Shown: piece by piece, positions 35,395 to 42,465 of the stretch
Layout of the letters: the number at the start of each line of letters is the position of its first letter
Numbering within the stretch: the first letter of the stretch is position 1
NCBI GenBank assembly: GCA_964036045.1
Contig: OZ038397.1
Coordinates: 19,965,742 to 20,029,741, forward strand
Source of the DNA: Eutreptiella sp. 'Long Island Sound 2002'
Taxonomy: Eukaryota > Euglenozoa > Euglenophyceae > Eutreptiales > Eutreptiaceae
DNA length: 64,000 bases
Reading direction: 5' to 3'
Program-made: the position numbers and the translations under genes
The notes under the pieces: model-generated
Told to the model about the DNA's origin: nothing
Database searches by the model: none
What the model saw: only the letters and a program-made list of their open reading frames with translations

Positions 35395-35410
35395 ACGGAC
35401 CCCCACTATG
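35395..35410. repeat. Target-site duplication, copy at the element's 3' end
   Basis: ACGGACCCCCACTATG, satellite sequence, ends directly at the element's A/T tail. The same 15-16 bp occur at 42450-42465 on the other side. The leading A may be chance, so the duplication is 15 or 16 bp. Intact paralogous satellite copies support duplication rather than deletion. Confidence 0.85.
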
Positions 35411-35942
35411 TTTTTTGCACTGAACGGCGCCTTTTGTGGCTGGCCAGGCCGGGGAGAAAGGCTCTTGCGCGCCAAGCTTTTTTGGGGAGGGGCGGGAGCC
35501 CGAAATCAAGTTCAATCGCGGGCTGAGTACCGCTGCACGTTGCTGTCCTCGTCTGCTTCATCTCAAAGAGACTTGGCAGCCCCGTTATAGACAACCGCAG
35601 GCCGGGGTCTCTGCTTGATACCCGAAGGCGGTGTGGTTGCGGATTGGGGGTTAGAGCATGACGGCTTGAGCACGGGGGGTGGCTTGGGGGAGGGATTCAT
35701 TTGCAGAAGTGACTGGTGAGTGCCAGTGTGGTAGTACTGATTGATTGCGCCGCTAGGGCTGTCGAGGGTCGGCGTGAGAAAATGTGTAAGTGTGGCTTTT
35801 TCAAAGAGATGACACGTTGGACGAGTGTGAGGACGATTGTGAGTTTGTGCTCGCGGGGGAGGGGGGGGCTGGTGCGAAGTACCTTGTTATGCGAGGAGAA
35901 GGGGCGGAAATGGGGGCGGAGGCGGCGAGGGGGGGTGCTGGT
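35411..35942 (-). other. Retrotransposon 3' UTR with short A tail
   Basis: 532 nt between the ORF2 TAG stop (35943-35945) and the satellite. In element sense it ends in GTGCAAAAAA, six A's joined to CATAGTGGGGG of the satellite. No AATAAA is present in the last 200 nt. A second A6 lies at 35478-35483, next to a small hairpin at 35464-35476 (CTTG, CGCGC, CAAG on the + strand). Short ORFs on both strands here have low complexity and no recognisable domain; I regard none as a gene. Confidence 0.8.
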
Positions 35943-38900
35943 CTAGGGGGGGGGGGGGAGGTTGAACATGTCCCTGATTGTGAGCGGCCGTTTGGGGGGC
36001 GGAGGCTCTGGCTGGGGTTGACTTGCGGTACCGCGTTTCAGTGATAGAGGCCGGACGGGCCTTGGGGGCTGGCGGCCGTGTTTTCGAGTTTTGGTGTGTG
36101 CCGCAGGAGATGGGGGGCGGGGGCGCTTTGGGGGCTTGTGTGCAACTTTGTCCGGGAGGGGGGGGGGAGGGTGGTAGGCGGGGGAGGGGCGTTGTTGGGC
36201 GGTGTGCGACGTGCTGTAGGGCGACCAGGGGCGTCCCCATGAGTTGGGGCCCGTAGGGGGGGTGAGCGGGGCTGGAGGGGGGTGGTCTTTTAGCCATTCC
36301 AGCGTGCGGTATAGGGCGCTGAGGAGCAGGGGAACACGATCCTTCAGGGCGAGTTTTAAGTCGTGACAGTGTGCTGGTTTTCTTCGGCCGGAGGGGGGGG
36401 TTGTGAGTTTGGTGTACAGCGTCATGGGAACAAGCCCCCGGACGAAATTGCGTCTCTCCCCCACGTGTGTGGTCGCGGACCACCATTGGGACACCACCGT
36501 GGTGAAGGGGGGGCGCCAGCATTGAATGTAGGTTTGGACCAGGTGTTCGCACGTTGGGCAGTGTGAGACGAAAGAGATAACATCCATCGGGTGCGGGTCG
36601 GGGCAAGCGTGGCAATGGCGAGGGCGCAAGTCGTCGTGGAAAGCAAATGGCGCCATGTTGAAATTTCCGGAGGACCATTTGAAAGGGAGGCCTTTGAACC
36701 ACGAAGTGTGATTGTAAAAATGGAAGCTGGACGGTGCGTGGATGTTTTCGTGTTTGTGGCGAGGGAGGAGATGCTTGATTGAGGTTGTAGTCAATTTGTG
36801 TATGACTGGGAGGGGGCCCCTGGATATGCACCCTATCGGGGGGGGGGGAAGGAGGGAGGGGTCCCAGACCATCACGTGGGCGGCCCACTTTGAGTAAGCA
36901 TCTGAGATTTCATTCCCCACGAACCCGGCGTGCCCCTTGATCCACCCCCAACCCTGGATCATCCCTGGGCGTAGGGAGGCCTGGATGGACTGGAGAGAGG
37001 ATTCCCACGTGCCGGCTGGCGAGCGTGATGGGAGGCCTGGGGGGGTGTTCGGAGAGAGAACAGTGATAACGTGGAGGTTGTCCCCTAGCACGGCGAAGGT
37101 GAGCTGCGGGTGAGATGCAAGGGCCCACCGTAGGAACATAATAGCGGCCCAGAACTCCGATCCCTCTGATGACTGGTACGGGGACGTTTGGCACAGTACC
37201 CATCTGGAGCCATTTGGAAAAAACAGGGTGGCCGCCGATCCGTAGCCCAAGGCGCCCGCTGAGCCATCCAAGTACACCCATGTCGTGCCGGGGGACGATG
37301 CGAGGAGGAGGGCAAGGGCTGCTTCACAACCCCATTCTTCGAGGTCGTCGGGTTCAAGGGAGTGAGGTTCATCTGGGAGCCGGTACAGCTCGCCATGCAG
37401 TGACGAGTCGAGTAGGACCCCGCCGTATGGCCCGGGGGGGGGGTTGAGGATGTATTCTTGAGGGTGAAGAAGGGGGGGGGTGAGCAGTTCGTGGCGCCCC
37501 GCCAGTTGAGGGAGGACAGAAATGGCTGGGTTTTGAAAGGTGTATTCTTTCTCGTTGCGGCGGAGACCGGGGTTTTTGATGGTGTGGGTGGTGCCGTCCG
37601 AAAACTGGAGTGTGGCCGATTCTGAGTGCACTTCCGTGACTGTACCTAGGTGGAACCCCAGGTCCTGGGGCGTCCGTTTTAACCTGTTGCCGAACTTGCT
37701 GTATTGTGGTGCCGGCTTGGTGGCTAGGAACCGGACCTGGACTTTTTCTTTTGGGAGGAAAAGGGAGGGGGGGCAGGAGGCCCAGAGGCCGGTGCTGTGG
37801 TATCGGAAGCCTATGGTGTGGCATGCGTCCATGATGGTGTCTTGGATTGGGTTGCGTGTGGTGGAGAGCATTGCTTCGGAAAAAGATTCGTTTGTCGAGG
37901 CCGGGCCGTCTCCGTTGAGGTACCTTATTGCGGTGTTTACCAGGGCCATGCAAATTGAAAAAGTGAAGTGGCGGAGTCCTAAGCCTCCCTGGTGGCGAGG
38001 GGTGTAGCGGGCCTTAGGGGAGACGAGGCGGGAGATCCTGTTGGCTCTGTCCGGGGAGGGGTCATGCGCAACATTTTGCCAGATCATGGCCTGAAGGGCC
38101 CCCAACTCGTTCAGGGCCAGGGGGTGTGCCATGAGGCGGTAGGAAAGAATAGGGATGAGTTGGACGTTCACCAAGAGAATGTATTCCGAAAGGGTGAGCT
38201 GGAGGGGTTGGAGGGTTGTGAAAAATGAGCGTATTTCCGACTTGGCCAATGCCAGTGTTTGTGCCTCATGGTTGGCGGTGAAGATGTATACCCCTAGGTA
38301 TTTGTAGCAATTGTGTGGTTGCCCCGTCTTTTGGTTTGTTGTCGACAGGGGGGTGCCCGAGGGGGAGGTGAAGGTTCTGGGGGGAGCTGTTCCCATAGCG
38401 TGGATCTCGGTTTTGCTGAGGTTAAGGTCTAGACCCCACTCCCTGGCGACCGTGTCGAAGAAGTTTAAAACTTGCTGTATGCGGTCCCCATTCTCTGATC
38501 GATAGAGGAGGTCGTCAACAAAGGCGTGGCCCGATTCGTGTGAGGAGGGGGGTGCAGTGACGTGGGACGGCAAGGCGAAGAGGAGCACATTCAGGTAGAG
38601 GCAGAAAAGGATTGGTGACATGGGGCATCCTTGCCGAACGCCTCTGGTTTGCAAGTGTGAGGAGTGGGTTTGACCTGACACCACTGGGAAGTCGCGAGGG
38701 GCACGGTACAAGGATTGAATGAGGTTTACAAGGGGCGTAGGAAAGTTCAGGCGGGATAGAACTGTGAAGAGGGTGGTGTGGGGGACGGAGTTAAAAGCCT
38801 TATTGAAATCAATGTAGAGGCTGTAGCTACCGACCGATTCCCGAAACGTGGATAAGAGGTTGAAAATGTGGTCCTGGCATCTGCGGTTCGGAAGCCCGCC

Positions 38901-40847
38901 GAACTGGGTGGGGTGTATGATGGAATGTTCAATGGCCGCTGCCAGTAGTTCTCGGTTGGCGTGTGTTGCAATTATTTTGTAAACGCTGTTCAGCAAGGCT
39001 ATAGGCCTGTAATTTACCGGGTTCATCACGTCCCCTTTCTTAAAAAGCAAGATAATGTTGGCTTCGAGCCATTTCTCGGGCAACGGCCGGTGGAGGTAGT
39101 AGTTGCATACCTTCCAAATGAATTGTTGGATAGGGGGGGGAGAGACGTGCAAAGTGTAGTTGTTTGTGAAGTCCCGCCCTCCCGCCTTGTTGGGCTTGGA
39201 CCTCTTAAGCGTGTTGCGTAACGATTCCCAGGTAATGTCAGGGAGGAGGCCGTGTTTTGTGGGTTCGGGGCAGGCGGGGGAGTGTGCGAGTAGGCGATCC
39301 ACTAGAGTGTTCGGCGGTGCATATTCGAGGCTGCCCCCCAGGGTGAGGAGTGTAGAAGAGAAAATAGAGCCCACTTCTTTGGGGGTGGAGACGAGCTGTG
39401 TGGTGCCCGGGCGCTTCAGCGTTATTTCACCTCGTTCCACGGGGTTGAGCGCCTCGTTGATGGTGCGTTTGATCCTAGTTTTCCTCACTAGGCACCGATG
39501 GATTTTGGTGGTTGCGGCCTTGTTCACTTTGGTTTCCCACTCCTTGACGAGTTTGTTGAGCGTGTCCATGGAAGCGGGGTAATTGGGATGGTTGGGGGGG
39601 GGCAGGGTTTGCAGGGACTCTTTGATTTTCTTTACCAGAGCCGAGGAGGTAGGGCGTGACGGCGTGGTGATACTGTGGTAACTGGTCGCCACTTCCTCCA
39701 GCACCACGTCTGTGAAAAGCTCGATGTCCGCCGAGGACAAGGACTCAAAGCGGGGGAGGGTAGACTCGCACCACCTCGCCAGGGGGGCAAGGGAGTCGTG
39801 GTGCTTGGAGCGTTCCCGCTCCGTCAGTTTTCGGAAAACTTTCCTCTTAGTGGTGGGAGCTTCGGTGAAAGGGTGAGGGGGGACTTGAGAGGTGTACGTG
39901 ACTGGGTGGTGGTCGGACGTTTTGTCGTCGGTTTGGATGGTTGCAGAGGTGGGGGCAAAAAATTCCGAGGCCGCCGGGGAGAGCAAAATGTGGTCAAGGC
40001 GGCTACTGCTTGCCCTGTACGGGGTGGGGTATCGGGAGAAGGACCGCTCGGTCGGGTGAAAGTGCCGAAAGGTATCGATGAGACGCGGCGGGTCGCTCGT
40101 GATCTGTCTGCGAAGCCACGGCCATTCGTTGTCCGTTTGGAGGTTCGATCCGTCTAGTTCAGGGCACATTATGCAATTGGTGTCCCCACCGAGGACGTGG
40201 TTAGGATACTGATGCATGAGTGGCCGTAGGATGTTTTCAATTTTTGAGCGGTGGACGTCCGTGCTTGGGGCGTATACCGAGACCAGCAAGGTGGGCGGGG
40301 CCCCCGGGAGAGTGAGAACGGCTGCCGCCAGCATCCCTTCTGTATCTAGTCGGGGAAGGGGGGTAACGAAGCGGGAGAGCCGGGGGGAACAGACCAAGAC
40401 GGAACCATGCTCGCCTCTGGAGTGTTTGTCTTGGCTGATATTCGAAACGATGGTGGCTTTAGTGCCCGAACCGTAGGCGTATACGTGGGGGAGGATGGGG
40501 GCGTGATTGATTTCTTGGAGGAAGAGGATGTCGAAGTCGTTCTTGAGGTGTCGGAGAATTTGGCTGCTCACTATGGGTTTCTTCTGCAAGTTGTGGGATA
40601 GAAAACGCAGTTCTGAAGGGAGGGGTATGGGGGGGCGGTGAGGCCGTTGGTAACCCTTCCGTAGGCGCGTTTTGGATCTCGGGGGGGGCGGGATAGGGGG
40701 GGGCTGGGGGGGCACTGGGGAGCCGGGCTGGCTGGGCTGGCTAAGGCAAAGAAAGTGCTGAATTTGGTCGGCCGGTATCCCGGCCGAGGTGAGCTCGTCG
40801 TCTAGCCCCTTGCCTGTGATGGTGGAAGCCGTGACTGGGCCAGTGGT
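35943..40847 (-). CDS. ORF2: LINE polyprotein (APE endonuclease, reverse transcriptase, RNase H)
   Basis: Replication protein of the element: it nicks target DNA, reverse-transcribes the element RNA from the nick and probably degrades the RNA strand. Residues are numbered from the GTG codon at 40715. The frame is open 44 codons further upstream, to 40847, just after an in-frame TGA (40848-40850). Order: proline-rich N-terminus; EEP/APE endonuclease about 36-275 (N42, E68, GGDTN 177-180 region, SRLDH 238-242, SDHH 267-270); linker; reverse transcriptase about 500-780 (NYRP 568-571, motif A D636, RGVRQGCPMSP 691-701, motif C FVDD 732-735); RNase H 1143-1282 (D1150, E1187, D1212, H1262, D1272); Cys/His motif 1368-1391; proline-rich tail to 1590. 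The first in-frame ATG is residue 128, inside the endonuclease, so initiation must be non-AUG or coupled to ORF1. The real start is unknown. Confidence 0.95.
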   Translation of the reverse strand, partial: TTGPVTASTITGKGLDDELTSAGIPADQIQHFLCLSQPSQPGSPVPPQPPPIPPPPRSKTRLRKGYQRPHRPPIPLPSELRFLSHNLQKKPIVSSQILRHLKNDFDILFLQEINHAPILPHVYAYGSGTKATIVSNISQDKHSRGEHGSVLVCSPRLSRFVTPLPRLDTEGMLAAAVLTLPGAPPTLLVSVYAPSTDVHRSKIENILRPLMHQYPNHVLGGDTNCIMCPELDGSNLQTDNEWPWLRRQITSDPPRLIDTFRHFHPTERSFSRYPTPYRASSSRLDHILLSPAASEFFAPTSATIQTDDKTSDHHPVTYTSQVPPHPFTEAPTTKRKVFRKLTERERSKHHDSLAPLARWCESTLPRFESLSSADIELFTDVVLEEVATSYHSITTPSRPTSSALVKKIKESLQTLPPPNHPNYPASMDTLNKLVKEWETKVNKAATTKIHRCLVRKTRIKRTINEALNPVERGEITLKRPGTTQLVSTPKEVGSIFSSTLLTLGGSLEYAPPNTLVDRLLAHSPACPEPTKHGLLPDITWESLRNTLKRSKPNKAGGRDFTNNYTLHVSPPPIQQFIWKVCNYYLHRPLPEKWLEANIILLFKKGDVMNPVNYRPIALLNSVYKIIATHANRELLAAAIEHSIIHPTQFGGLPNRRCQDHIFNLLSTFRESVGSYSLYIDFNKAFNSVPHTTLFTVLSRLNFPTPLVNLIQSLYRAPRDFPVVSGQTHSSHLQTRGVRQGCPMSPILFCLYLNVLLFALPSHVTAPPSSHESGHAFVDDLLYRSENGDRIQQVLNFFDTVAREWGLDLNLSKTEIHAMGTAPPRTFTSPSGTPLSTTNQKTGQPHNCYKYLGVYIFTANHEAQTLALAKSEIRSFFTTLQPLQLTLSEYILLVNVQLIPILSYRLMAHPLALNELGALQAMIWQNVAHDPSPDRANRISRLVSPKARYTPRHQGGLGLRHFTFSICMALVNTAIRYLNGDGPASTNESFSEAMLSTTRNPIQDTIMDACHTIGFRYHSTGLWASCPPSLFLPKEKVQVRFLATKPAPQYSKFGNRLKRTPQDLGFHLGTVTEVHSESATLQFSDGTTHTIKNPGLRRNEKEYTFQNPAISVLPQLAGRHELLTPPLLHPQEYILNPPPGPYGGVLLDSSLHGELYRLPDEPHSLEPDDLEEWGCEAALALLLASSPGTTWVYLDGSAGALGYGSAATLFFPNGSRWVLCQTSPYQSSEGSEFWAAIMFLRWALASHPQLTFAVLGDNLHVITVLSPNTPPGLPSRSPAGTWESSLQSIQASLRPGMIQGWGWIKGHAGFVGNEISDAYSKWAAHVMVWDPSLLPPPPIGCISRGPLPVIHKLTTTSIKHLLPRHKHENIHAPSSFHFYNHTSWFKGLPFKWSSGNFNMAPFAFHDDLRPRHCHACPDPHPMDVISFVSHCPTCEHLVQTYIQCWRPPFTTVVSQWWSATTHVGERRNFVRGLVPMTLYTKLTTPPSGRRKPAHCHDLKLALKDRVPLLLSALYRTLEWLKDHPPPAPLTPPTGPNSWGRPWSPYSTSHTAQQRPSPAYHPPPPLPDKVAHKPPKRPRPPSPAAHTKTRKHGRQPPRPVRPLSLKRGTASQPQPEPPPPKRPLTIRDMFNLPPPP
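35946..36284 (-). other. Proline-rich, basic C-terminal tail of ORF2
   Basis: Residues about 1478-1590 are rich in Pro, Lys, Arg and His with no fold I recognise, and give the long G-runs seen on the + strand. The last 15 residues include KRPLTIRDMF, which loosely resembles a PCNA-interacting (PIP) motif but lacks the leading Gln. Function unknown; possibly nucleic-acid or protein binding. Confidence 0.5.
36543..36614 (-). other. Cys/His (putative zinc-binding) motif of ORF2
   Basis: Residues 1368-1391: C-x2-C, then 13 residues, then H-C-x2-C-E-H. RNase H-bearing LINEs commonly carry a Cys/His motif downstream of RT/RNase H, thought to bind nucleic acid. The exact ligand set here is inferred. 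Confidence 0.65.
36870..37289 (-). other. RNase H domain of ORF2
   Basis: Residues about 1143-1282 match RNase HI: VYLDGSAG (D1150), SEFWAA (E1187), LGDNLHV (D1212), then IKGHAGFVGNEISDAYSK with H1262 and D1272. The full D-E-D-H-D set suggests an active nuclease that removes template RNA. Confidence 0.92.
38391..39083 (-). other. Reverse transcriptase core of ORF2
   Basis: Residues about 545-775. Visible motifs: LLFKKGD and NYRPIALLNSVYKIIA (fingers), YIDFNKAFNSV (motif A, D636), TRGVRQGCPMSP (motif B), FVDDLLYRS (motif C, D734 and D735) and LNLSKTEIHAMG (motif D region). The fingers and thumb extend beyond these limits. Motif C is FVDD rather than the usual LINE F/YADD. Confidence 0.96.
39891..40610 (-). 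other. APE-type endonuclease domain of ORF2
   Basis: Residues about 36-275 carry the EEP signature: FLSHNLQ (N42), FLQEINH (E68), VSVYAPS, LGGDTNCI (D178, N180), SRLDHILLS (D241) and TSDHHPV (D268, H269). All metal-binding and catalytic positions look intact. It should make the first nick in the target; the junction puts that nick in satellite sequence after CACTATG. Confidence 0.94.
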
Positions 40848-40932
40848 TCACTGAATCTTGGCCCTTTTGTGTTCAGGTAGAGGGGGCTGGACAGTGCAGG
40901 AGGCGGGTACCCGGCCCTCTGGCTTTCGTGGG
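40848..40932 (-). other. Spacer between ORF1 and the ORF2 open frame
   Basis: 85 nt from the ORF1 TAA (40933-40935) to the start of the open ORF2 frame, with a TGA in the ORF2 frame at 40848-40850. ORF2 is in a different frame from ORF1. No ATG lies on the - strand in any frame from 41045 down to 40409, so no AUG start for ORF2 is available here. I see no classic slippery heptamer, and the frames do not overlap. Confidence 0.8.
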
Positions 40933-42384
40933 TTAGCTTGCCTGTGGTATGTGTCGGAGGATTAGAGCGAGGCGAGGGACGGTACGAGGGACGGTTAGCC
41001 CAAACACTTCGTCTTCTCTCCGTCGAGGTATACCGTGGTGCCACTCATGGCGTGCGGCCCCCGTGAGGACCAGGAGAGAGCGGGCAAACAGGCGGATGCG
41101 AAAGGAGTCCCCGTTGGAGGGGTTCTTAAAGAACATTGTGGTGTCCGATTGGGAACCAAAAATGGACACTGGGTCGCCTAGCAAGGGGTCGTCCCCGTGG
41201 TAGCCGATGCCCTCTCCCGGGAGATACATTGTGCCCGTGATTTGGTTGGGAGGAGGGTGTGAGAGGCCTAGCCGCTCCAGCGCGGCATTGTAGGTTTGGA
41301 GGATGGAGGAAAACTCTTCCGGGATGGGGGACGTGGCGGCGACTTTGCTCGGGCCGAGGTATGCGTGGCCGAAGTGTTGGACTGAGCGCCCGTGGTACTT
41401 CTCCCACGTGTTGTCGTGGAGAATCTTTTTTACCGTTTCCTCTTGGCTTTCGGAGAATACGTCGCGGACGTAATAAAAACCAGCGGGGAGGCGGGGGTCG
41501 ATTTGAATATCCGAGGCGGGGGTGGGGGCACCGTGGTCGGGGGGTAGGAGGGTGGTCGCCTCGCCTCCTAGTGGAGCAAGCAGCGGGACGCTGGTCTCGG
41601 ACATCTCTTCGATGCGGCTTGGTCCCGGCGTTGGCGTAGCGGCGCCGGCGTCCTCCGGTGCCGCGTTCCACTCGCTGATGCGCTCAGTCAGCCCCGTAGC
41701 GGGCCTTTCACGAAGGGCGGTGACAAGTTGGGACACGAAGGCCGTGGACCCCAAGGCGGCTCCCGCTTGGAGGCGCTGCACTATGGGTCGCTCGTGCTCG
41801 GCCACATCCGGGCCTTGAGCGGGGAGGATCTTCTCGAGGGCGATGAGGTTGCGGTGTAGTGGGGCAAAGGCAGCGTCTCCATATTTGAAATCATGCGCTA
41901 GCAGCGCGGATTCCCCCTTTTCGTAGACCACGAGGTAGGCTTGTTGGTGTTCGTAGGGAGGCCTCGTGGGCTCGAACGACACGTACGGGCCAAGGAACCC
42001 CGCTTGGACGCGCAAGTCGAGAGCGTGCGCCGATCTTGGGGCCACTAGGAGCACGGCGGTCTTCGGGGCCTTAGATGAGTCGTATGAGGGCGGGGCCGGC
42101 GTCGCGTGGGCTCGCTCGGGGGCGCCCGAAGGCGCGGACCTCGCGTTGCCGTCGGATCGTGACGAGAACCGCACTAATTGCCCATCTATGCCATGAAAGA
42201 GAACAATGCCGCATGAGTGGAAGAAGCGGATAGCTAACGTTTGGACACCGGTCTTCATGACGTCGCACGGTGCGTGAGTGGTGTCAATCGCCACGACCAA
42301 GGAATCTTTAGACCGGAACATCGCTCCTAGGGGCGGTGAGGCGCCCCGTCCACCGGGCAGGTTGGCGATCATCATGGTGAGCAT
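40933..42384 (-). CDS. ORF1: unknown N-terminal region fused to AlkB-like Fe(II)/2OG dioxygenase
   Basis: 483 aa from the first ATG (42382-42384); the frame is open back to a TAA at the insertion junction (42448-42450), giving 21 more non-AUG codons. Residues 1-230 (numbered from this ATG) hold two hydrophobic, beta-rich stretches around a Ser/Pro/Ala-rich linker (about 75-108) and match no family I recognise. Residues 230-300 are a Pro/Ala-rich linker. Residues 300-483 are AlkB-like: NQITGTMYLPGEGIGYHGDD with the iron ligands H396 and D398, WHHGI with the distal histidine H450, and RLALILR with R471 and R477 for 2-oxoglutarate. AlkB enzymes oxidatively remove alkyl groups from nucleic acids. 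LINE ORF1 proteins usually carry RRM, CCHC, coiled-coil or esterase domains; none is evident here. Role in RNP formation, RNA or DNA protection or counter-silencing is inference. Confidence 0.9.
   Translation of the reverse strand: MLTMMIANLPGGRGASPPLGAMFRSKDSLVVAIDTTHAPCDVMKTGVQTLAIRFFHSCGIVLFHGIDGQLVRFSSRSDGNARSAPSGAPERAHATPAPPSYDSSKAPKTAVLLVAPRSAHALDLRVQAGFLGPYVSFEPTRPPYEHQQAYLVVYEKGESALLAHDFKYGDAAFAPLHRNLIALEKILPAQGPDVAEHERPIVQRLQAGAALGSTAFVSQLVTALRERPATGLTERISEWNAAPEDAGAATPTPGPSRIEEMSETSVPLLAPLGGEATTLLPPDHGAPTPASDIQIDPRLPAGFYYVRDVFSESQEETVKKILHDNTWEKYHGRSVQHFGHAYLGPSKVAATSPIPEEFSSILQTYNAALERLGLSHPPPNQITGTMYLPGEGIGYHGDDPLLGDPVSIFGSQSDTTMFFKNPSNGDSFRIRLFARSLLVLTGAARHEWHHGIPRRREDEVFGLTVPRTVPRLALILRHIPQAS
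40951..41487 (-). other. AlkB-like 2OG-Fe(II) oxygenase domain of ORF1
   Basis: Starts near LPAGFYYVRDVFS, like the entry strand of AlkB folds, and runs to the ORF1 C-terminus. Iron ligands H-x-D (HGD) and distal His (WHHGI), plus the paired arginines R-x5-R, are all present in the right order and spacing, so catalytic activity is plausible. Substrate (DNA or RNA, which lesion or mark) cannot be read from sequence. Confidence 0.9.
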
Positions 42385-42449
42385 TTCCGGAGCTTGTAGG
42401 TCTTTGTTTCTTTCCTTTCGGTCCCTAGCGATCACGGCTCGATACACTT
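42385..42449 (-). other. Retrotransposon 5' leader
   Basis: About 65 nt between the satellite junction and the first ORF1 ATG; purine-rich near the ATG (GGAAAGAAACAAAG). Too short to judge an internal promoter. It may be the natural 5' end or a slightly truncated one. Confidence 0.6.
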
Positions 42450-42465
42450 ACGGACCCCCACTATG
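42450..42465. repeat. Target-site duplication, copy at the element's 5' end
   Basis: ACGGACCCCCACTATG, identical to 35395-35410. Satellite phase resumes from here. Both copies carry the TATG variant. Confidence 0.85.

Follow-up and report, generated by a model that had tools for sequence, protein, structure and literature searches.

The 64,000-nucleotide stretch of Eutreptiella sp. 'Long Island Sound 2002' DNA analysed here (contig OZ038397.1, positions 19,965,742 to 20,029,741; hereafter the window) contains a long interspersed nuclear element (LINE) whose first open reading frame (ORF1) ends in an AlkB-like domain, a predicted Fe(II)- and 2-oxoglutarate (2OG)-dependent dioxygenase. The domain recurs in other, diverged LINE families of the same host, with invariant catalytic residues and low rates of protein change, and complete copies of three of these families begin with a spliced leader. 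A first interpretation made from the letters of the window alone (the sequence-only reading) had already placed an AlkB-like domain in the ORF1 of a LINE. This holds, but it had missed the 5' truncation of the window copy, the other AlkB-bearing families and the leader of the full copies.

Several lines of sequence evidence identify the domain. Pfam PF13532 (2OG-FeII_Oxy_2) matches residues 372-479 of the window ORF1 with 31.7 bits (E = 2.2e-7), borderline against the curated cut-off of 31.2 bits, as is the score of 31.9 bits for a second copy of the same family (family A, locus L030); scores in the other families described below are 52.8 and 54.2 bits (family B), 44.4 and 47.5 bits (family C) and 49.2 and 48.7 bits (family D). 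In a phmmer search of the PDB, human ALKBH8 (3thp) matched residues 319-481 (E = 2.3e-12) and Schizosaccharomyces pombe P8A3.02c (5yl6) residues 403-483 (E = 1.9e-12), and human ALKBH6 (7vjs) was found at E = 7e-9; all three matches cover the H-x-D motif and the second iron-binding histidine. The HGD, WHHGI and R-x5-R motifs lie in AlkB order, as the sequence-only reading had stated (Table 1). Thus, a score above the cut-off together with the catalytic residues places the domain in the AlkB family. NCBIfam gave no match to ORF1.

The 483-residue frame originally taken as ORF1 begins at the first ATG of its frame (M22, window position 42384) within a real open frame of 504 codons, but it cannot be a complete ORF1: the 5' part of the element is missing here, and untruncated copies have an ORF1 of about 900 residues. 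To survey family A, the 504-residue product was searched against the 2.28-Gb genome, and 85 places, the window included, were scored of 3351 first-look candidates; older copies lie outside this survey. All 85 match residues 1-504 at 99-100% identity, so that copies without AlkB, which the sequence-only reading had named as evidence against itself, do not occur among them. Open frames of 974-1011 residues are found in 58 of the 85 places and of at least 957 residues in 78, the other seven being shorter. Four loci that we fetched (L030-L033) are 99.7-99.8% identical to one another, and the complete element measures about 8.45 kb; in L030 the first in-frame ATG (MNFTLF) leaves an ORF1 of about 903 residues. 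The window copy is 99.67-99.86% identical to the full copies L030, L032 and L033 over 7.0 kb, and 99.76% identical over 5.5 kb to L031, whose match stops 1.5 kb before the usual 3' end. A database protein of 822 residues, 99% identical to the window frame, likewise carries an N-terminal extension. The protein database is rich in family A ORF1s (one cluster has 163 members and another 121), and a protein search with alignment A1 returned 61 proteins, all 54-100% identical to the family A query.

The element is a young LINE. It interrupts, as a single copy of about 7 kb, a 32-bp satellite that occupies the remaining 57 kb or so of the window (positions 1-35394 and 42466-64000). Its second open reading frame (ORF2) contains an APE-type endonuclease and a reverse transcriptase, both above their Pfam cut-offs, as do the ORF2s of families B and D; long terminal repeats (LTRs) are absent, and a 3' poly(A), target-site duplications and 5' truncation are present. 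The endonuclease-reverse transcriptase-RNase H order proposed earlier is sound for the first two domains, whereas RNase H falls just short of its cut-off in the window copy and passes it in the scanned copies of families B and D. A 16-bp repeat does enclose ORF1 and ORF2, as had been claimed, but because a chance match in register has a probability of about 1 in 32 in a 32-bp satellite, it is only supportive, and the clear target-site duplications come from other copies of the element.

Table 1. Features of the LINE copy in the window (window coordinates; residues are those of the window frames)
Feature	Position	Strand	Basis or detail
ORF1, 3' part only (504 codons and stop codon; C-terminal ~56% of ~900 residues)	40933..42447	-	
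AlkB domain (2OG-Fe(II) dioxygenase), ORF1 C terminus	40936..41493	-	Pfam, PDB matches, alignment
HGD codons, H-x-D iron-binding motif	41191..41199	-	residues 417-419
Second iron-binding histidine codon	41035..41037	-	H471 in WHHGI (469-473)
R-x5-R codons, 2OG binding	40954..40974	-	R492 to R498
5'-truncated LINE copy (family A)	35411..42449	-	junctions read; short poly(A), TTTTTT on the + strand, at 3' end
Target-site duplication, element 3' side, ACGGACCCCCACTATG	35395..35410	.	16-bp direct repeat, read at junction
Target-site duplication, element 5' side, ACGGACCCCCACTATG	42450..42465	.	read at junction
ORF2, 1590 residues, endonuclease-reverse transcriptase-RNase H	35943..40715	-	Pfam scan
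APE-type endonuclease (Exo_endo_phos)	39909..40598	-	ORF2 residues 40-269, E = 1e-8, above cut-off
Reverse transcriptase (RVT_1)	38286..39038	-	ORF2 residues 560-810, E = 6.6e-32, above cut-off
RNase H domain	36885..37283	-	ORF2 residues 1145-1277; 23.5 bits, under the 25.8-bit Pfam cut-off

The association of AlkB with a LINE is not confined to family A. A genome search with PF13532 gave 1107 first-look candidates, of which 150 were scored and 151 matches counted. We fetched 20 stretches around such matches, giving preference to long open frames or high scores, which biases the set toward intact copies, and in 13 of them an AlkB frame is followed by an ORF2 like that of the window. Nine of these form family B (L010, L015-L021 and L027) and four form family C (L011-L014), which answers the earlier call to look for other ORF1-ORF2 pairs with the same fusion. 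The ORF1s of the aligned B and C copies are only 25-27% identical to that of family A, yet the AlkB domain stands at the C terminus in all three; ORF2 identity is 41-42% between A and B and, between A and C, 34% in the endonuclease part and 41% in the reverse transcriptase part. In families B and C, ORF2 is in many cases split into several frames. Because AlkB occupies the same place in homologous A, B and C ORF1s, one old gain is the simplest account of its origin there. A similarity search found no LINE ORF2 in L022-L026 and L028; of these, we used L022 and L028 as single AlkB genes to compare with the LINE domains, and the later AlkB alignments omit L023-L026.

A fourth family, D, was read at two loci (L029 and L058) that are 99% identical over 4.2 kb, and it is arranged differently: ORF2 is followed by a separate frame of 365 residues, which overlaps the ORF2 end and has AlkB at its own C terminus. 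The ORF2 of L058 has 1733 residues with endonuclease, reverse transcriptase and RNase H, and L029 contains only the ORF2 end; the family D ORF1 lies outside both copies, L058 being cut in the endonuclease region and L029 starting within ORF2. In a genome search with the 365-residue frame (112 matches scored from 16909 first-look candidates), 8 of the scored matches span the whole frame at 78-100% identity; there are also partial matches, and many at about 32-54%, often with stops; the last of the scored matches lie mostly in long frames resembling the ORF1s of families A-C. In a tree of AlkB domains, family D groups with the two single genes at 72% support, and the branches of A, B, C and a bacterial gene have 47-48%. 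By position and tree, a separate gain of AlkB in family D is possible. A scan of a collection of genome contigs turned up one AlkB-like gene from Verrucomicrobia (26% identity), and scans of viral contigs yielded no AlkB relatives. None of 529 candidates in a protein search with the family B AlkB region reached E = 0.01, although family B is repeated in this genome.

Two further features of these elements may be mentioned here. The C-terminal 250 codons of the family D ORF2 (L058:308-5506) form a long proline-rich tail containing QLTISHYF and QMKLPDFF, both of which we read as instances of the PCNA-binding pattern; in its strict form the pattern is absent from those A and B ORF2s that were tested. 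In addition, a reverse transcriptase search (150 matches scored of 61090 candidates) identified a fifth family, E, represented by one copy (C8:40.79 Mb) whose ORF2 is 41% identical to that of family A. Upstream of this ORF2 lies a repetitive frame of 515 residues (L060:44-1588), with a best Pfam match of E = 0.012, below the cut-off. Alongside LINE-type hits, the best 150 RVT_1 matches come for the most part from a numerous family in which the match is shorter and the open frame often 1658 residues long; its members are probably LTR retrotransposons.

Selection on the domain can be judged from its catalytic residues and from substitution rates. In an alignment of seven rows (A3: the window for family A, two B, one C, one D and the two single AlkB genes), H117, D119, H171, R192 and R198 are invariant in every row. 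The ratio of nonsynonymous to synonymous change (dN/dS), a check that the sequence-only reading had proposed, indicates purifying selection: in 12 pairs between two family B groups (L010 and L015 against L016, L017, L019, L020, L021 and L027) it is 0.06-0.14 for the AlkB part at dS of 0.26-0.40, and no bootstrap upper bound exceeds 0.24. For the remainder of ORF1 the same contrasts yield 0.12-0.17, and AlkB is thus about as low. L018, whose AlkB part is frameshifted, was excluded from the between-group comparison; its values are 0.30 in between-group contrasts and 0.49-0.65 against other copies. Inside a single B group, without L018, dN/dS ranges from 0.04 to 0.90 at small dS, as expected for young drifting copies, and the six family C pairs give 0.11-0.27. 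LINE lineages that went on transposing so appear to have retained the enzyme.

The ends of complete copies bear on the RNA from which they were probably made. Full copies of families A, B and C start with CACTTTCTGAGTGTCTATTTTTTTTCG or a near match (from L030:1024, L033:1016, L015:871, L013:335 and others). The excerpt of PMC6242988 gives the Euglena gracilis spliced leader as ACTTTCTGAGTGTCTATTTTTTTTCG. The present genome has 1056 places where CACTTTCTGAGTGTCTATTTTTTTTCG stands between an A and a GT; among the first 100 of these places listed there is an array with 1303-bp spacing on contig C2, the others being further apart, and a 5S rRNA gene lies close to each of the four leader loci that were read (all on C1). 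By its spliced leader and 5S genes, the host is a euglenid of the Euglena type. The first 35 bases behind the leader in family A have 302 exact matches, 206 of which also have 25 exact leader bases; six of the remaining 96 places were read, and all six have the leader with small changes, such as a longer T run or single substitutions. Altogether, the leader was present at all 20 family A 5' ends read (L030-L033, ten more and these six, the first 14 coming from a list of near-identical copies), with L032 lacking the first few bases. It was likewise present in all nine family B copies and in both family C loci that reach that far, L011 with mismatches.

These starts coincide with insertion boundaries, in that target-site duplications lie directly beside the leader or a few bases away from it. 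When ten family A end pairs were inspected, nine showed a duplication beside the poly(A), where a script called three; the tenth (L052/L053) has no recognisable 3' end. L030 and L033 also carry duplications. In family B, repeats flank six of the nine copies; five of these repeats measure 14-18 bp, and that of L017 is longer. Among 19 family A ends, CACTTTC follows an A in 15 and a T in 4. We considered whether the T found there in all nine family B copies could be a misread modified leader A, and dropped the idea, as in four of the six flanked copies the T belongs to the repeated target. Separately, one family A copy (L048/L049, C25:10.86 Mb) is inserted in leader-like sequence, so leader-bearing stretches are also targets.

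Since complete copies start with the leader, reverse transcription probably uses trans-spliced LINE RNA as its template. Alternatively, the leader could be an inherited part of the element DNA. In one locus, L064, a further leader, shortened, comes after the first; this fits re-splicing in a later round, or could be a slippage duplication.

Taken together, our results are best explained by a model in which the predicted dioxygenase in the ORF1 protein strips base methyl groups from the element's own RNA, a model that we hold with about even confidence. The element RNA would receive the host spliced leader by trans-splicing, and the ORF1 and ORF2 proteins would be translated from it. The ORF1 protein, the presumed RNA-binding partner of the ORF2 protein, would then coat the RNA, and the AlkB domain would take base methyls off the coated molecule in cis. 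As a result, target-primed reverse transcription would not be halted by blocking methyls, or the RNA would escape marking by the host. Of these steps, we infer that ORF1 binds RNA, that the domain is an active enzyme working on RNA and in cis, and that trans-splicing recurs with every round. A narrower version, which seems to us distinctly unlikely, is that AlkB strips base methylations that would halt reverse transcription, for instance on cap-proximal leader nucleotides or at other sites of the RNA, and that this allows complete copies to reach leader nucleotide 1 or 2.

A number of observations weigh against demethylation of the element RNA. When the full ORF1 was scanned, AlkB was the single Pfam match, and neither an RNA recognition motif (RRM) nor another RNA-binding domain was recognised. 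AlphaFold2 models of the full ORF1 (built from 20 family A rows) and of the AlkB domain are of low confidence, with predicted local distance difference test scores (pLDDT) of 30 and 43.6. Foldseek with the latter returned 477 matches under an E limit of 10, of which 7 reached 0.001 or better, and the best 50 of the 477 are AlkB-family entries by title, but at TM scores of 0.19-0.29 by query length the model is not usable. AlkB homology follows from the sequence, and the structure models add no proof. ALKBH8, the nearest solved relative, hydroxylates the tRNA wobble uridine and is not known to act as a demethylase, and the title of another ALKBH8 entry (PDB 3tht) speaks of tRNA hypermodification. 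The dN/dS values come from copies selected by the length of their open frames, a choice that favours intact ones. In the family E copy, AlkB was not found within 1.5 kb upstream or 1.9 kb downstream of ORF2, which rules out the generalisation that every LINE copy of this host has AlkB beside ORF2 and suggests that the domain may be dispensable for some LINEs. Finally, N6-methyladenosine (m6A) helps retrotransposition of human L1 and ALKBH5 suppresses it, according to the excerpt of PMC7873242. Since human L1 profits from m6A, erasing it need not help a LINE, and blocking methyls such as 1-methyladenosine (m1A), 3-methylcytidine (m3C) and 3-methyluridine (m3U) would be better candidate substrates.

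An alternative that we consider unlikely is that the substrate is DNA, with AlkB removing methyl marks or lesions from the element's complementary DNA or from chromatin at the insertion site and so opposing host silencing. In its favour, heavy cytosine methylation is reported in E. gracilis for endogenous giant-virus regions and the DNA flanking them, stronger in the viral regions (excerpt of PMC12455990). A profile of the A, B and C domains also matches the DNA N6-methyladenine demethylase NMAD-1 (8haz, E = 4e-10). However, the closest solved relatives are ALKBH8, P8A3.02c (Ofd2) and ALKBH6, and the domain sits in ORF1, the presumed RNA coat, which favours RNA. To our knowledge, AlkB enzymes do not erase 5-methylcytosine as a main activity.

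Rather improbable, in our judgement, is that the domain acts as an ALKBH8-like tRNA-modifying enzyme that tunes host decoding toward the GC-rich frames of the element. Among solved structures, ALKBH8 matches families B (E = 2e-14) and C (E = 5e-12) best and is nearly the best for A (E = 2.3e-12 against 1.9e-12). The A/B/C profile matches ALKBH8 at E = 5e-28 and also P8A3.02c, ALKBH6, NMAD-1, ALKBH7, ALKBH2 and ALKBH3. ALKBH8 itself has the layout RRM-AlkB-methyltransferase. PF13532 is the sole Pfam match in the scanned ORF1s of A, B and C, which end with AlkB and have no C-terminal methyltransferase, and this places them outside the ALKBH8 family; a conserved region does precede AlkB in all three, but Pfam gives no RRM in the nine members scanned, and the profile match to 3thp sets in at chain residue 77 and is interrupted by a long gap ahead of AlkB. 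Moreover, resemblance of this level does not fix the substrate, and a benefit acting in trans would go to all other elements as well.

That the domain is non-catalytic, whether an RNA- or protein-binding module or a passenger, we regard as very unlikely. The family E copy does manage without AlkB. Nevertheless, the five catalytic positions are invariant across four LINE families and two single genes, dN/dS is low between the family B groups, and the domain persists in families whose ORF1s have diverged to 25% identity. A chance motif match, or an unrelated host gene beside a LINE, can be dismissed given the Pfam and PDB E-values, the linkage repeated in A, B and C, and the repetition of the frame with the element in 85 scored places.

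Several known systems offer parallels. ALKBH8, P8A3.02c and ALKBH6 share the same Fe(II)/2OG dioxygenase domain with the LINEs, but they are non-mobile host enzymes. A close analogue is a Ty3/gypsy element of the orchid Phalaenopsis, a retrotransposon with an acquired AlkB-family domain for which the excerpt of PMC9289625 describes RNA binding and m6A demethylation in vitro. That element is of LTR type, with an ALKBH5-like AlkB in an additional, separate frame, and is described there as recent (PMC9289625). In contrast, the present elements are non-LTR, carry AlkB within ORF1 or a 3' frame, are closest to ALKBH8, P8A3.02c and ALKBH6, and comprise several diverged families. Some plant RNA virus replicases contain AlkB, thought to repair or demethylate viral RNA; these, too, are selfish RNA replicators with an AlkB of their own, although theirs is borne by the replicase and involves no reverse transcription. 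In having two frames, an endonuclease-reverse transcriptase-RNase H ORF2, poly(A), duplications of mostly about 13-18 bp and 5' truncation, our elements resemble APE-type LINEs with RNase H, presumably those of the I, Tad and L1-like groups; they differ in the AlkB of ORF1 and in the host spliced leader that starts complete copies. Dinoflagellates contain retroposed genes with spliced-leader relics, where trans-spliced RNA has likewise been copied back together with its leader, but there the source is host mRNA and here it would be autonomous LINEs of several families. For scale, LINEs make up 1.49% of the published E. gracilis assembly (46 chromosomes, 2.37 Gb) according to the excerpt of PMC11252322.

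Among the papers listed by searches of open-licence PMC full texts, none, judged by title and the start of the abstract, reports an AlkB-bearing LINE or a LINE starting with a spliced leader. LINE-type fusions of AlkB and reverse transcriptase may occur in lists of fungal domain architectures, and we do not claim absolute novelty. An active domain would mean that an RNA (or DNA) demethylase of their own belongs to the standard make-up of several LINE families. They would then provide a natural system for testing if methylation of RNA holds retrotransposition back and if AlkB lets reverse transcriptase pass bases that would block it. If leader stripping were to prove true, it would represent a retrotransposon-encoded RNA eraser acting on the template during reverse transcription. 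A leader at the 5' end also raises the question of how such copies are transcribed again.

As for the surroundings of the LINE copy, Rfam gave no match in the window or in five loci, and the satellite of the window contains a single run of 200 N. Its 32-bp units contain short inverted repeats around GGACAAC/GTTGTCC.

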